From an uncultured Bacillota bacterium (GTDB lineage: Bacteria; Bacillota_I; Bacilli_A; RF39; UBA660): 64,000 bases of DNA. Made by a program: the position numbers and the translations under genes. The notes below the pieces were generated by a model. It saw nothing but the letters and a program-made list of their open reading frames with translations. It was not told the DNA's origin and did not search any database. This document shows, one piece after another, positions 7,784-13,738 of this stretch. The stretch is taken from the NCBI GenBank assembly GCA_945867665.1, contig CAMBIR010000001.1, positions 156,168-220,167 of the forward strand, given 5' to 3'. Numbering within the stretch: the first letter of the stretch is position 1; every line of letters begins with the position of its first letter.

Positions 7784-9988
7784 CTAATCTTTAATATTTA
7801 TACTTTGATAAGTGTATTTTTCTAAAATAAATTCTTTTAAAGTCGTTTTTCTGTAATCAACAAAATCATTCATGATTCCATTCGTAAAACATTTAGGGTC
7901 TCCTACAATCATTAGGCATTTTTTGGCTCTCGTTACGCCTGTATAAATCAATTTATTGTAAAGCATTCTGTTAAAATTATTGACAATTGGCATAATGACT
8001 AATGGAAATTCACTGCCTTGAGCTTTGTGAATAGAGATAGCATATCCGTGTCTAAAATTTGAAAATTTATCTGCTGTATAAGTAACTTGATTGCCATCAT
8101 AATCAATAATAATTTCATTTTTTTTAGTAGCACTTACTTTGCTATCAATAATATTTATAATATATCCTAAATCTCCATTATAGACATTGGCCTCAGTATC
8201 ATTTACGAGTTGTAAAACTTTATCCCCAATGCGGTAAGTTACTTCTCCTATGATGAGGGATTTTTTTGTGTCTAGTGGTGGATTAAAGAGTTTTTGTAAA
8301 TGTTGATTGAGGCGATCAATTCCATTGATACTTTTATACATTGGTGCGAGTATTTGGATATCTTTATCGGTATATCCTTTCTTTAAGGCATTGCTGGTAA
8401 TATAGAGAATGGTAGGGATAACTTTATCATTATCACACATAATAAAGTTATAGTCATCTCTTTTTATTACAAAGTCATCATCAATATCTTTATCTTTAAT
8501 TTCATTTGCGAGGATAGGAATATAAGAATTTTCATTTTGACGATATAAGCAATTTAATTTCACGACATCGATTAGTTCGGTGTCCATTAAATCTTTTAAA
8601 ACTTGGCCTTGTGAAACACTAGGCAATTGAAAATAATCACCTACTAATACTAATTTAACATTTCTTTTAATTCCTTTTAATAATGAAGAAAAAAGAATCG
8701 TATCAATCATACTTACTTCATCGACGATGATATATTTTTCATTGTTTGGTGAATATTCGTCTACACAAAATTTATTTTTATCTTTATCGTATCCTAGATA
8801 TCTGTGAATGGTGCAGGCATATAGTTTGGTTGTTTCTGCCATCCTTTTTGCCGCTCTGCCGGTTGGGGCTAAAAGAGCAATTTCTGAATTCTTGGCCTGA
8901 AATACTTCTTGAAATAGAGAAACTATGGCTTTGATGATGGTGGTCTTTCCTGTCCCAGGTCCACCCGTTATAATAGTAATGTTATTGGTAATGGCTTTTT
9001 TTATCGCCTTTGTTTGAACTTTGTCATAGTGAATTTGATTTTTTCTTTCTAATGCTTCAATTTTCTCTTCTAATTTGGGAATTTTTGTTTTGGCCATATC
9101 ATTCATAAATGAGACCCTGTCAGCAATATATTTTTCTGCTTCATAAAATTCTTTTAAATAATATTTTTCACCAATGATTACTACTTTTCTTTTCTCATTT
9201 AATTTACAGATGTTATATTCTAATACTTCATCATTTATAGTTTGTAAATATTTTAGAATATTATGTTTTATTTCATCATATTCCATATAAGTATTTCCTG
9301 TTTCAAAGGTGCAAGAGGAGATAACGTAGATGATTAGGGCTTGAATTCGACGGTCATCATCTTCTTCAATTCCTGAATTTAACGCAATAGCATCAATCTC
9401 AGAGAAGTTAAAATCCATCTCTTCAATTAAGTTATAAATGTTTTCACTTATTTTATCCATGGCTTTATTCTTGTAACGATTTACAATGGACAAGGCATTT
9501 TTATTGGAAAAACCTAATGTAGTTAAGTCAATAACGATTTGACTGGAATATTCATATTCATTTAATACTTTATAAATTTTATCAATTCTAGATTGAGGAA
9601 TACGAGGAATTTCAGATAATCTATCTTTATCTTTTAGGATGATATTTAAAGTTTCTTCGCCAAAATGGTCAACAATTTTAGTCGCGGTTACTTCACCTAT
9701 AGGGAATAAATCACTGGATAAAAACTCGACGAGTTCTTCTTTTTTTGTGGGAAGAACTAATTCATAAGTTGTAACATGAAATTGATTTCCATACTTTGGG
9801 TGTTTTATATATTCCCCATTCATAAGATAAGTACTACGAAGTCTTAAATTGAAAAAATTTCCAGTAAAATATATGTTAGAAGTACTTATTTCTAAGTCAG
9901 TTTCTTTTAATTTTAAGACACCAACGATATAGCCATTTTCTTTATTTGAATAAATTTCTTTAATGAATGTTCCTTTTATATAACTCAT
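7784..9988 (-). CDS. recD2: SF1 DNA helicase RecD2
   Basis: 5'-3' ATP-dependent DNA helicase of the RecD2 type, found in bacteria without RecBC partners and involved in replication-fork and repair work. About 734 residues. The long N-terminal OB and helix-hairpin region precedes the motor domains. The motor carries Walker A G-G-P-G-T-G-K-T-T, Walker B V-D-E-V-S-M-I-D, the SH3-containing 2B part, motif V H-G-Y-A-I-S-I-H-K-A-Q-G-S-E-F and motif VI Y-T-G-V-T-R-A-K-K. Start at 9988 (M-S-Y-I-K-G) is preferred because GTAGGTG lies 6 bases before it. A TATAAT box at about 10015-10020 could serve it. Confidence 0.94.
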   Translation of the reverse strand: MSYIKGTFIKEIYSNKENGYIVGVLKLKETDLEISTSNIYFTGNFFNLRLRSTYLMNGEYIKHPKYGNQFHVTTYELVLPTKKEELVEFLSSDLFPIGEVTATKIVDHFGEETLNIILKDKDRLSEIPRIPQSRIDKIYKVLNEYEYSSQIVIDLTTLGFSNKNALSIVNRYKNKAMDKISENIYNLIEEMDFNFSEIDAIALNSGIEEDDDRRIQALIIYVISSCTFETGNTYMEYDEIKHNILKYLQTINDEVLEYNICKLNEKRKVVIIGEKYYLKEFYEAEKYIADRVSFMNDMAKTKIPKLEEKIEALERKNQIHYDKVQTKAIKKAITNNITIITGGPGTGKTTIIKAIVSLFQEVFQAKNSEIALLAPTGRAAKRMAETTKLYACTIHRYLGYDKDKNKFCVDEYSPNNEKYIIVDEVSMIDTILFSSLLKGIKRNVKLVLVGDYFQLPSVSQGQVLKDLMDTELIDVVKLNCLYRQNENSYIPILANEIKDKDIDDDFVIKRDDYNFIMCDNDKVIPTILYITSNALKKGYTDKDIQILAPMYKSINGIDRLNQHLQKLFNPPLDTKKSLIIGEVTYRIGDKVLQLVNDTEANVYNGDLGYIINIIDSKVSATKKNEIIIDYDGNQVTYTADKFSNFRHGYAISIHKAQGSEFPLVIMPIVNNFNRMLYNKLIYTGVTRAKKCLMIVGDPKCFTNGIMNDFVDYRKTTLKEFILEKYTYQSINIKD

Positions 9989-10029
9989 GCTAACACCTAC
10001 TTTTCGCATAAAAAATTATATCATATTCT

Positions 10030-10061: not shown

Positions 10062-10070
10062 TAAAATATT

Positions 10071-13067
10071 CTATTCTGCTGATATGATATATGGATCTTG
10101 GTAGGTTCCTGTTCCACCAGTTGCGACGGCGGAAGACTTAAGACGTAGGACTGGGCGCACGCCAATCGCGAAGTCCGAGTAGTTGTAATACACGAGCCGG
10201 TAATCCGGATACCAGAAGAATAAATACGTCGAGGAAGCGCTATTTGGAGTGGCAAACCAATAAAATCCTCCATTATTAATAATTGCGTAGTCATCGTAAT
10301 AACCTTCAGCTTTATTTGCAGCAGTACTAAGTGTGTCCCCAGTAATATTCTTAAAATCAGCATCATTCATATTCCAAGCACTACTACTATTACATACCCC
10401 ACCGTAAGCATAAGTTGAATTACAATAAGTTAGAGCCTTAGCATTTAAATTTGCAAGGTGTTTAGGAACACCTGATGTTGTTTCATAATCACTACAGCTA
10501 GTACTTGCATTTCCTGATGAATCTGTACACATACATTCAGGGGAACCTCCTGATGTAAGATAAGCAGTACCATCATTGATATAAGCAACACGCCAACCAT
10601 TAGAATTAAATTTATAAGAAGAGTTATAACAGTATCCCATATCTGTATTGCTTACATAGTTAGCATTTTGTCCTTCACATGATTTACCAGAACAGCCATT
10701 ATTTCCTGTATATTTGACGTATGACCCGACTGAAACACTAGATATTAATTTGGAAGAAGCGCCAATAGTTATTGTTTTTACATATTTGTACAGGTATCCA
10801 AAATCATCTTTTACAACGATAGTGATAGTTTGAACGCCTGGAGAGAGATTTTTGGTATCTGTTATTCTTACTACTTGGCAACCAGAGCCATTATTTTGAC
10901 AAGTAATATCATTTTTAGTTAGATTTTCTCCGGAATTAATGACTTTATCAGAAACTTTTATTGTTGGTACTACTGGTGTTACTTTTGCAACTCCATTTCC
11001 ACTATTTCCGGTTATGTTTGAAGTTCCAGCAAGGTTAGGCATACTTGCGTTTCCTGCTATCATTGTTGCGTTTATAAATCTTTTTCCTGAATAGTGGTAA
11101 GAACAAGTAATATCGGTTGTACCGTCTTGACAAACAGAATTATTGGATGCGCGATTGGTACCAGTTAAAATTATCCAACCGGAAGCATATACTTCAGATG
11201 CAGTTGCCCCATTATAGACATGGGCAGTTAAATTGGTTGTAGTTCCTGAGGTTGCTATTAAGATATTATCAGATCCTGATCCATTACCAAAATCCATTAC
11301 TCTAGACCAACTATTTAAAGCAGTCCAAACTGCTTCAAATTCAATGGTAAATCCACCAGCAAAGTCAATACTACTTGGTAAGGTTGGTACTTGTAAGTAA
11401 TCATCTGTTCCATCTAATACAAGAGCATATTCTTTTCCATCATTTTGTAAGCTTGCTCCATTTTTTAGTGTACCATTATAACCGTTTCCTGATTTGTCTG
11501 CTACGGTATTTTTAGTAAAATCATACCAAAGGACTGTTTTCTCGTTTGCTAAAGTGATTTTTAAACTATAAATTCTTCCTTGAAAGTATTTGTCATCCCA
11601 GTTTGATTTTCCAATATAATTTGATGTTCTATTGATGTTTTGAACTAAATTAGTTACTGAGGTACTATTGATTAGGTTATTATATCTATCATAAATATTT
11701 AGAGTTGTAGATGAGCCTTTAGTATAAACAATTTTAAATTTTTGCTTATATCCAGCTGAGATAGCGCCTTGGTAACCAGAAATGTAAGAAGATCCTCCAC
11801 CGGCGGCACCATGACCACCATTTCCACCACCATAATATCCGCCACCGCCTCCGGCTTGAGAAGTATTTCCGCCACTTTGAGTAGCAGTTCCAAAACTTCC
11901 AGTTAAAAATAATTCTTTTTGAACACCAGCCGTGGTATAAGTAATGTACTGTCCACCTCTAGTTTGCGTAGCTCCAGTTCCTACTCCGTGATGATTGTAA
12001 GTGGCAATGTTAGCTGTTGCGGCATAGTCAACTGAAGTACCATCGATTCCTATTAGAGCGCCTCCCGCTCCTCCATTGCCAGAACCATATTTATAACTAG
12101 AGTCTGCGGCATTTCTGTCATTAGCGCCTCCCCCACCAGCGGCAACCATAATTCTAGATGCTAAAGAAGTTGGGTTCATACATGTACCACTTATTATTCG
12201 AAAGTCTGTAGCACCGCCACCAGATGAACCATAAGCACTTTGCCCAGTTACTAAATCTCCACCACCGTTATATCCTCCTGTGTCACTTCTTGTTCCTTGT
12301 CCACCAACATAGACGTATAATTTATCATTTTTCTTTAAATTAATTGTCCCTTTTGTATATGCACCTTTACCACCTGTATAAGAATTGAAATCTCCTCCTT
12401 TGGCTCCCCAAGCTTCTAGTTTATAAGTTCCATCATGATCAGGTGTAAAGGTTTGGGATGAACCTGTATAAGAATATGTTATTGAATTCGTATTAAAAGT
12501 AATACTATTATCTTTAACTGATACATATCTTGAAGTGGTATCGTCATAGTAATAGTCAACTTCGTTAGTCGTTCCTGAAATTAATTTTTTTCCACCTAAG
12601 TATTCAATGCTATCCGTACTTTTCTCTGAAGAAGATACTCCTACATTTACTTTAATGGATGAGGAAGTATTGTTTTTGATAATAATGGTTGCTGTTTTAT
12701 TAGCAGATGAATCAATGCTATCAGTAGTTGGGGTATCATTTTCCATACTTCTAGCAATAATAATTTTATCATTTTTTTCTGATGGGATAACCATTTGATA
12801 CCAAACACCATAGTATGCATTATTACTGCTACTATTTTTAATATTTACATTAAATATTTTGTAGTCATTTGCTTCTACTACAACTTCTTCATATTCTTCA
12901 ATATTACTAATTCCAATATTGAAGGATAAGTTTAGACTTACGATATCTTTTCCTGTTGTTCCTCCAGCGGCAAATTTAGCATAGGTTCCTTTTATTCCTA
13001 TTCCTGCTAAACATATTACTAATAATAGTAATAAATACATTGCTTTTTTTCTCGGTATACTCTTCAT
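10071..13067 (-). CDS. Secreted modular protein with Gly-rich, LamG-like and C-terminal CLec-type variable domain
   Basis: 998 residues; start chosen at M-K-S-I-P-R-K-K because GAGGTG lies 6 bases upstream. An N-terminal signal helix (about 9-26) ends in G-T-Y-A, resembling SipW/TasA-type secreted proteins, followed by a beta domain (30-190). Next is a glycine-rich domain (about 195-435, resuming near 655-700), with a LamG/ConA-like segment (about 436-630) inside it. An Ig-like stretch covers 700-770, and a cysteine-containing C-terminal domain (775-998) ends with Y-W-F-A-T-P and G-V-R-P-V-L-R-L. That end resembles DUF6273/DUF1566-type C-type-lectin folds. There is no LPXTG motif or C-terminal anchor. 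It is probably exported and binds carbohydrate, protein or phage ligands; that is inference. The last part of the gene has very different base composition (separate entry). Confidence 0.85.
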   Translation of the reverse strand: MKSIPRKKAMYLLLLLVICLAGIGIKGTYAKFAAGGTTGKDIVSLNLSFNIGISNIEEYEEVVVEANDYKIFNVNIKNSSSNNAYYGVWYQMVIPSEKNDKIIIARSMENDTPTTDSIDSSANKTATIIIKNNTSSSIKVNVGVSSSEKSTDSIEYLGGKKLISGTTNEVDYYYDDTTSRYVSVKDNSITFNTNSITYSYTGSSQTFTPDHDGTYKLEAWGAKGGDFNSYTGGKGAYTKGTINLKKNDKLYVYVGGQGTRSDTGGYNGGGDLVTGQSAYGSSGGGATDFRIISGTCMNPTSLASRIMVAAGGGGANDRNAADSSYKYGSGNGGAGGALIGIDGTSVDYAATANIATYNHHGVGTGATQTRGGQYITYTTAGVQKELFLTGSFGTATQSGGNTSQAGGGGGYYGGGNGGHGAAGGGSSYISGYQGAISAGYKQKFKIVYTKGSSTTLNIYDRYNNLINSTSVTNLVQNINRTSNYIGKSNWDDKYFQGRIYSLKITLANEKTVLWYDFTKNTVADKSGNGYNGTLKNGASLQNDGKEYALVLDGTDDYLQVPTLPSSIDFAGGFTIEFEAVWTALNSWSRVMDFGNGSGSDNILIATSGTTTNLTAHVYNGATASEVYASGWIILTGTNRASNNSVCQDGTTDITCSYHYSGKRFINATMIAGNASMPNLAGTSNITGNSGNGVAKVTPVVPTIKVSDKVINSGENLTKNDITCQNNGSGCQVVRITDTKNLSPGVQTITIVVKDDFGYLYKYVKTITIGASSKLISSVSVGSYVKYTGNNGCSGKSCEGQNANYVSNTDMGYCYNSSYKFNSNGWRVAYINDGTAYLTSGGSPECMCTDSSGNASTSCSDYETTSGVPKHLANLNAKALTYCNSTYAYGGVCNSSSAWNMNDADFKNITGDTLSTAANKAEGYYDDYAIINNGGFYWFATPNSASSTYLFFWYPDYRLVYYNYSDFAIGVRPVLRLKSSAVATGGTGTYQDPYIISAE
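10128..10246 (-). other. Candidate diversity-generating variable region (VR)
   Basis: Within the 3' end of the secreted-protein gene, codons for about residues 942-980 become GC-rich and adenine-poor. I count 53 G+C in 10141-10240 against 33 in the next 100 bases (10261-10360), and only 15 adenines per 100 on the coding strand. Surrounding codons end in A or T; these end mostly in C or G (TCC, TCG, ACG, CCG, CGG, CTC, GTG, GAC, GCG, CGC). The encoded stretch is rich in Y, F, W, S, D and R and lies just before a conserved G-V-R-P, the typical place of variable residues in CLec-fold targets of diversity-generating retroelements. No reverse transcriptase or template copy is visible in this window. 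Confidence 0.55.
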
Positions 13068-13158: not shown

Positions 13159-13689
13159 CTATAGACTTTTAAAGTAGGGATTATTTTGTATTTCAAAATC
13201 TAAGGTTGTTTTTTCTCCATGTCCAGGATAGAGTGTTATTTCCTTAGGGTATTGTTTTATTTTTTTAATACTAGATAGCATTTCTTGAAAGTTTCCCCCT
13301 TCTAAATCACATCTACCTATGGTTGTTTTAAAAACAAAATCCCCAACAAACATTACTTTTTCTTCTTTAAAATAGTAAGAGACTGAATCTTTGCTATGTC
13401 CTTTAGTAAAAAGTACTTCTAGGGAAAAGGGACCAATATTTAATCTACCTTCTTCTAGATTATCATACGAATAGACTGGATAATGGAATTTTTCTTCTAA
13501 TTTTTTTAAAGCACCAATATGGTCGAAGTGATGATGGGTGATGAGTATTCCTAAAATTTTATAATCTTTGATAAAATTTATAATTTTTTCATCCTCATCC
13601 CCGGGATCAATTAATAAACATTTGTTATCTTTTTCTAGTAAATAGCAATTACATTTTAACATTCCTACTTCTATTTTACTAATTTTCAT
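13159..13689 (-). CDS. Metallo-beta-lactamase-fold hydrolase (glyoxalase II-like)
   Basis: 176 residues with the complete metal-binding pattern: T-H-H-H-F-D-H (about 53-59), a later H in K-G-H-S-K-D-S (about 110), D in F-V-G-D-F-V-F and H in Y-P-G-H-G-E. This is the YqgX/GloB-like single-domain group, which hydrolyses thioesters such as S-lactoyl-thiols, though the substrate is not set by sequence. The start at 13689 follows AGGTGAT by 4 bases; a GTG three codons earlier overlaps that site. It is followed by its own terminator. Confidence 0.9.
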   Translation of the reverse strand: MKISKIEVGMLKCNCYLLEKDNKCLLIDPGDEDEKIINFIKDYKILGILITHHHFDHIGALKKLEEKFHYPVYSYDNLEEGRLNIGPFSLEVLFTKGHSKDSVSYYFKEEKVMFVGDFVFKTTIGRCDLEGGNFQEMLSSIKKIKQYPKEITLYPGHGEKTTLDFEIQNNPYFKSL

Positions 13690-13738
13690 TTTTATCACCT
13701 TTTTTAGTATAACACATAAAAAAAGAAATGGGCATGTT

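Follow-up and report, generated by a model that had tools for sequence, protein, structure and literature searches.

A very probable remote (trans) target of a chromosomal diversity-generating retroelement in an uncultured Bacilli genome

Results

A GC-rich, adenine-poor patch near the end of a gene in the 64 kb stretch of DNA analysed here (the window) is very probably the variable region (VR) of a trans target of a chromosomal diversity-generating retroelement (DGR). The VR, 89 bp in length (10153..10241, minus strand), is homologous to a template repeat (TR) located on another contig of the same genome, C7 (L011:5754-5842), where it precedes a reverse transcriptase (RT) gene by 205 bp. The genome searched is a MAG of 1.31 Mb in 28 contigs. 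Differences between the VR and the TR are concentrated at template adenines, and the VRs of this genome and of a congener each follow the TR of their own species at positions where adenine plays no part.

Target gene and composition of its 3' end

The target gene is located at 10071..13067 on the minus strand. Its mechanical ORF begins at the TTG at 13196 (1041 aa), while the ATG at 13067, chosen by inspection, gives a protein of 998 aa, the length stated in the initial annotation. A signal-like sequence of the secreted type is present at the N-terminal end, followed by a glycine-rich domain (PF12810, E=8.7e-39; about 11715-12434, minus strand) and a C-terminal variable domain (about 10071-10790, minus strand) which the other targets encoded in the genome also carry. 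No relative of this domain was found by a PDB sequence search, matches to DUF6273 were weak, below the cut-off and confined to relatives, and an AlphaFold2 model based on three input sequences has a pLDDT of 38, too low for use. The CLec-like (C-type lectin) fold suggested in the initial annotation is thus not confirmed by these data.

The GC-rich, A-poor patch at the end of the gene is real. The coding strand of 10128-10246 has 51.3% GC and 17.6% A and the exact VR has 52.8% GC and 15.7% A, as compared to a GC content of 37% in the 100 bases preceding the VR, 35.6% in the whole target gene and 29.8% in the window. A GC content of 53% over 119 bases is reached at only two places in the 64 kb, namely the VR patch and a second peak near 11742-11902, which lies within the same target gene. 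The composition flip reported in the initial annotation (53% against 33% GC, with 15% A) is therefore borne out by the measured values, and its coordinates, 10128-10246, enclose the VR and the putative IMH almost exactly.

Template repeat and adenine bias

Search of the genome with the window VR, a check proposed together with the annotation, identified two near-copies on C1 and three on C7. Of the latter, one spans just 96 bp and adjoins the RT gene; this is the TR, which lies outside every listed ORF and is abundant in AAY codons. Search of the own genome with the TR matched the window VR at E=8e-14, and within the window gene the TR matches best at C1:166313-166408, on a contig of 237 kb. 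The genome holds five VR copies which are 76-83% identical to the TR.

Mismatches between the window VR and the TR occur at 16 of the 29 template adenines and at 6 of the 60 other bases (Fisher p=9.2e-6). The same bias is present in 5/5 VRs of the genome: the two VRs on C7 differ from the TR at 16/29 and 15/29 adenines and at 2/60 and 1/60 other bases, and the two further VRs on C1, identical to each other, differ at 18/29 adenines and 1/60 others. The GC-rich, A-poor composition of the patch is accounted for by a GC-rich template, the adenines of which have been replaced in the copy. One C7 VR contains an extra codon within the (AAC)4 tract of the TR, for which template slippage would account.

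The initial annotation had placed the writer of this VR outside the window, with neither RT nor template inside it and the gene as a remote target. Both points agree with the location of TR and RT on C7. The window VR is about 71 kb from the nearer end of C1, and the TR is located 5.7 kb into C7; provided that both contigs are parts of a single chromosome, at least about 75 kb separate the VR from the TR. Since the RT and the VR reside on different contigs of a MAG, one of these contigs might conceivably be a contaminant, but C1 itself bears two further VRs of the C7 TR, which speaks against it.

DGR cassette on C7

The gene content of C7 shows a complete DGR with two cis targets, a MutS-domain-I (MSL) gene, an Avd-like gene, the TR and the RT. 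All genes are on one strand, in the order target gene (L011:2579-4297), small ORF (L011:4330-4764), MSL gene (L011:4742-5155; PF01624 MutS_I, E=7.5e-7, above the Pfam cut-off), Avd-like gene (L011:5145-5495; NF033474, E=5e-8, below the cut-off, and phrog_3206 'Avd protein of DGR', E=2e-7), an 89-aa ORF (L011:5476-5745), and, beyond the TR, the RT gene (L011:6048-6989; RVT_1, E=2.7e-18, and phrog_1423, E=1e-71), after which the second target gene follows (L011:6986-8950). The RT carries the motifs GFMTSQ and YQDD, and its best PDB match is 8ub7 (E=3e-20), an entry for a BPP-1 DGR RT. Features by which a DGR is recognised are found here: a DGR-type RT, a TR beside it, adenine-focused TR-VR differences, an accessory gene and a putative IMH differing from its TR counterpart. 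MSL is a known DGR accessory (PMC10053308). Rfam search around the TR gave no match. Matches of the RTs in PADLOC as a defence system were dismissed as generic RT similarity. Relatives of the C7 RT (E<=1e-20) are present in 90/193 genomes of the family, counted on the RT match alone.

Directly after the window VR, with one base between, lies the 12-base sequence GTCCTACGTCTT (10140..10151, minus strand). It follows VRs in this genome and in the congener G005, and in its place ATTCCTAAATGATT is present after the TRs of both species, and GTCCTACGTCTT is therefore regarded as the core of a putative IMH. No inverted repeat suitable for a stem-loop of the BPP-1 type was found after the IMH at the four VRs checked. 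Such a stem-loop has been described as helpful though not strictly required (PMC12875486), and it is not a defining feature of all DGRs.

Comparison with a congener

One genome per species was compared. The congener G005 has the same cassette, with an RT 88% identical to that of C7. The public contig JAQXQC010000031.1 (L015, Bacilli bacterium SUG1421) carries this cassette at the same identity, and we infer that L015 comes from the G005 genome. The TR of the congener differs from that of the own genome at nine columns, A being present in neither TR at any of them. VRs of the own genome agree with their own TR at 9, 9, 8 and, for the window VR, 7 of these nine diagnostic columns, and the congener VRs agree with the congener TR at 9, 9, 9 and 5. 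The VRs thus track the TR of their own species, a pattern that marks the overwriting of VRs from the TR; such species-specific agreement would not result from shared ancestry of the targets alone. Along with the excess of adenine mismatches, this upholds the adenine-directed mutagenesis proposed earlier. The non-coding spacer between TR and RT is conserved at 92.5% between the two genomes as compared to 88% for the RT gene, as expected if the spacer belongs to the DGR RNA.

The most lagging VRs are the window VR and C41 of G005, both distant from the cassette. Remoteness alone does not explain the lag, because C38 of G005, also distant, agrees at 9/9. The window VR is the most drifted in the genome, with 6/60 non-A mismatches against 1-2/60 in the others, and two of its six non-A differences equal the TR of the congener; it has therefore probably been overwritten by the present TR less recently than the other VRs.

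At the corresponding locus of G005, about 100 bp lie between the helicase gene (window 7784-10009) and its neighbour (window 13159-13698). Window positions 10068 and 13148 have their counterparts at L079 3026 and 3047, the entire target gene being absent there. A gain here and a loss in G005 fit this comparison equally well. The C11 paralogue of the own genome is AT-rich in the stretch equivalent to the VR and has no similarity to the TR, and its counterpart in G005 (C38) bears a true VR.

Second DGR and other VR-bearing loci

A second complete cassette is present on C3. It is encoded on the minus strand and consists of a target (L013:5696-6661), a MutS_I gene (L013:5191-5640), an Avd gene (L013:4857-5201), TR2 (L013:4828-4698), an RT (L013:3594-4562) and another target (L013:2672-3616). 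Mismatches in this DGR fall on 19/45 adenines and 5/86 other bases. It was considered as the writer of the window VR and rejected, since the three VRs matched by TR2 are all located on C3 and do not include the window VR. Both targets flanking the C3 cassette (L013:2649-6661) share an identical 641-bp block which includes the VR, and the third TR2 match is located about 8 kb from the cassette (G000:C3:22226-22363, minus strand; L090).

One target encoded on C1 (L012:7432-9378; G000:C1:103431-105377) carries the variable domain twice in tandem. An identical block of about 310 bp covers both of its VRs while the flanks clearly differ, which looks like gene conversion or an assembly effect. In Candidatus Faecimonas and in a related MAG (L016:268-4943 and L019:1450-6125), signal-peptidase-like and secreted-looking genes form a series that ends with a protein whose C-terminus is weakly similar, and this protein is encoded upstream of MSL-like and RT genes. 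Another genome of the genus, G004, in which no RT match was found, has two VR-like, GC-rich ends accompanied by the IMH-like GTCCTACGTCTA (G004:C204, L051); they are either orphan targets or targets whose cassette is missing from an incomplete MAG.

Discussion

The arrangement suggests a mechanism in line with the established DGR pathway, in which the VR gives way, as far as the IMH, to an error-prone cDNA of the TR RNA (PMC12875486, PMC8144416). The RT/Avd complex would copy the TR RNA and err opposite adenines, and the cDNA would then take the place of the VR as far as the IMH. Rewriting would fall mainly on the roughly 12 AAY (Asn) codons that the template supplies for the C-terminus of the target. 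The target is probably secreted and ligand-binding, and the ligand bound by the window protein may be a variable extracellular one.

Other origins of the patch have to be weighed against this. Its composition, sharply unlike that of the gene and the window, would suit a piece of GC-rich foreign DNA acquired at the end of the gene with no tie to a DGR. Such plain horizontal transfer fails because the GC-rich patch is also found in the non-coding template next to the DGR-type RT and in four further VRs, with differences mainly at adenines, and we give it practically no credence. Hardly better placed, and very improbable, is the reading of the copies as ordinary paralogous domains shaped by diversifying selection or gene conversion with no retroelement involved: the C-terminal domain does form a paralogous family with identical blocks among its copies, but the coding copies track a template outside any listed ORF at non-A bases while adenines vary, they do so separately in each species, and C11, the paralogue that lacks a VR, is AT-rich across the same stretch. 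A phage-borne origin was also rejected, as no relative of the target domain was found in IMG/VR and the phage RTs are all <60% identical.

A more serious candidate, which we nevertheless regard as unlikely, is that the window gene is a retired target, its VR having been written by an older TR or copied in with the domain from another target, after which rewriting ended. The non-A mismatches, of which two out of six coincide with the TR of the congener, agree with this, as do the gene-conversion-like identical blocks among other targets; the gene is missing at the congener locus and may have arrived with its VR, and a leftover remote target written by another TR type is known in Treponema denticola (PMC4891356). 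Against retirement, the gene has kept an intact reading frame and an unaltered putative IMH core, and 7/9 diagnostic columns agree with the current TR.

Tentatively, and as only one possibility, a single TR may feed a shifting set of secreted targets which are gained or lost locus by locus, with domains spread by gene conversion. This picture draws on the absence of the window gene in the congener and on the C11 counterpart, which has a VR only in the congener. The unequal lag of the targets behind the template would then reflect unequal rates of rewriting.

DGRs with several VRs (PMC6642488), remote targets (PMC4891356) and genomes that combine several DGRs with trans targets (PMC10907252) have all been described. 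The system is thus of a known type, of which the window case is a new, well-supported example with several targets. Like the BPP-1 DGR (Mtd, Avd, TR, bRT), the C7 DGR has a TR-RT core with an Avd-like gene, adenine-directed differences, a target gene that has its VR at the 3' end and distinct sequences after the TR (IMH*) and the VR (IMH). Unlike that of the Bordetella phage, it is chromosomal, has several targets including trans ones and a MutS-domain-I accessory, and has no stem-loop found after the IMH. The Treponema denticola DGR (PMC4891356) is alike in its core cassette with distant targets, some of them lagging or matching another TR version; here, the host is an unrelated uncultured Bacilli, the target domain is another and the genome has two separate DGRs. 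Thiohalocapsa PB-PSB1 (PMC10907252) likewise has more than one DGR in its genome together with candidate trans targets, with modular targets, some having more than one VR, and duplicated target regions, but its targets are putative intracellular conflict proteins whereas those described here are secreted-looking and belong to a 1.3-Mb AT-rich genome.

A flip in composition alone can therefore expose a remote DGR target with no cassette in view. The analysis adds a 1.3-Mb genome of an uncultured Bacilli with two complete DGRs and eight VRs. The congener pair provides a natural test of template-to-target overwriting, in which nine non-A marker positions reveal the targets that have been rewritten after the templates diverged.
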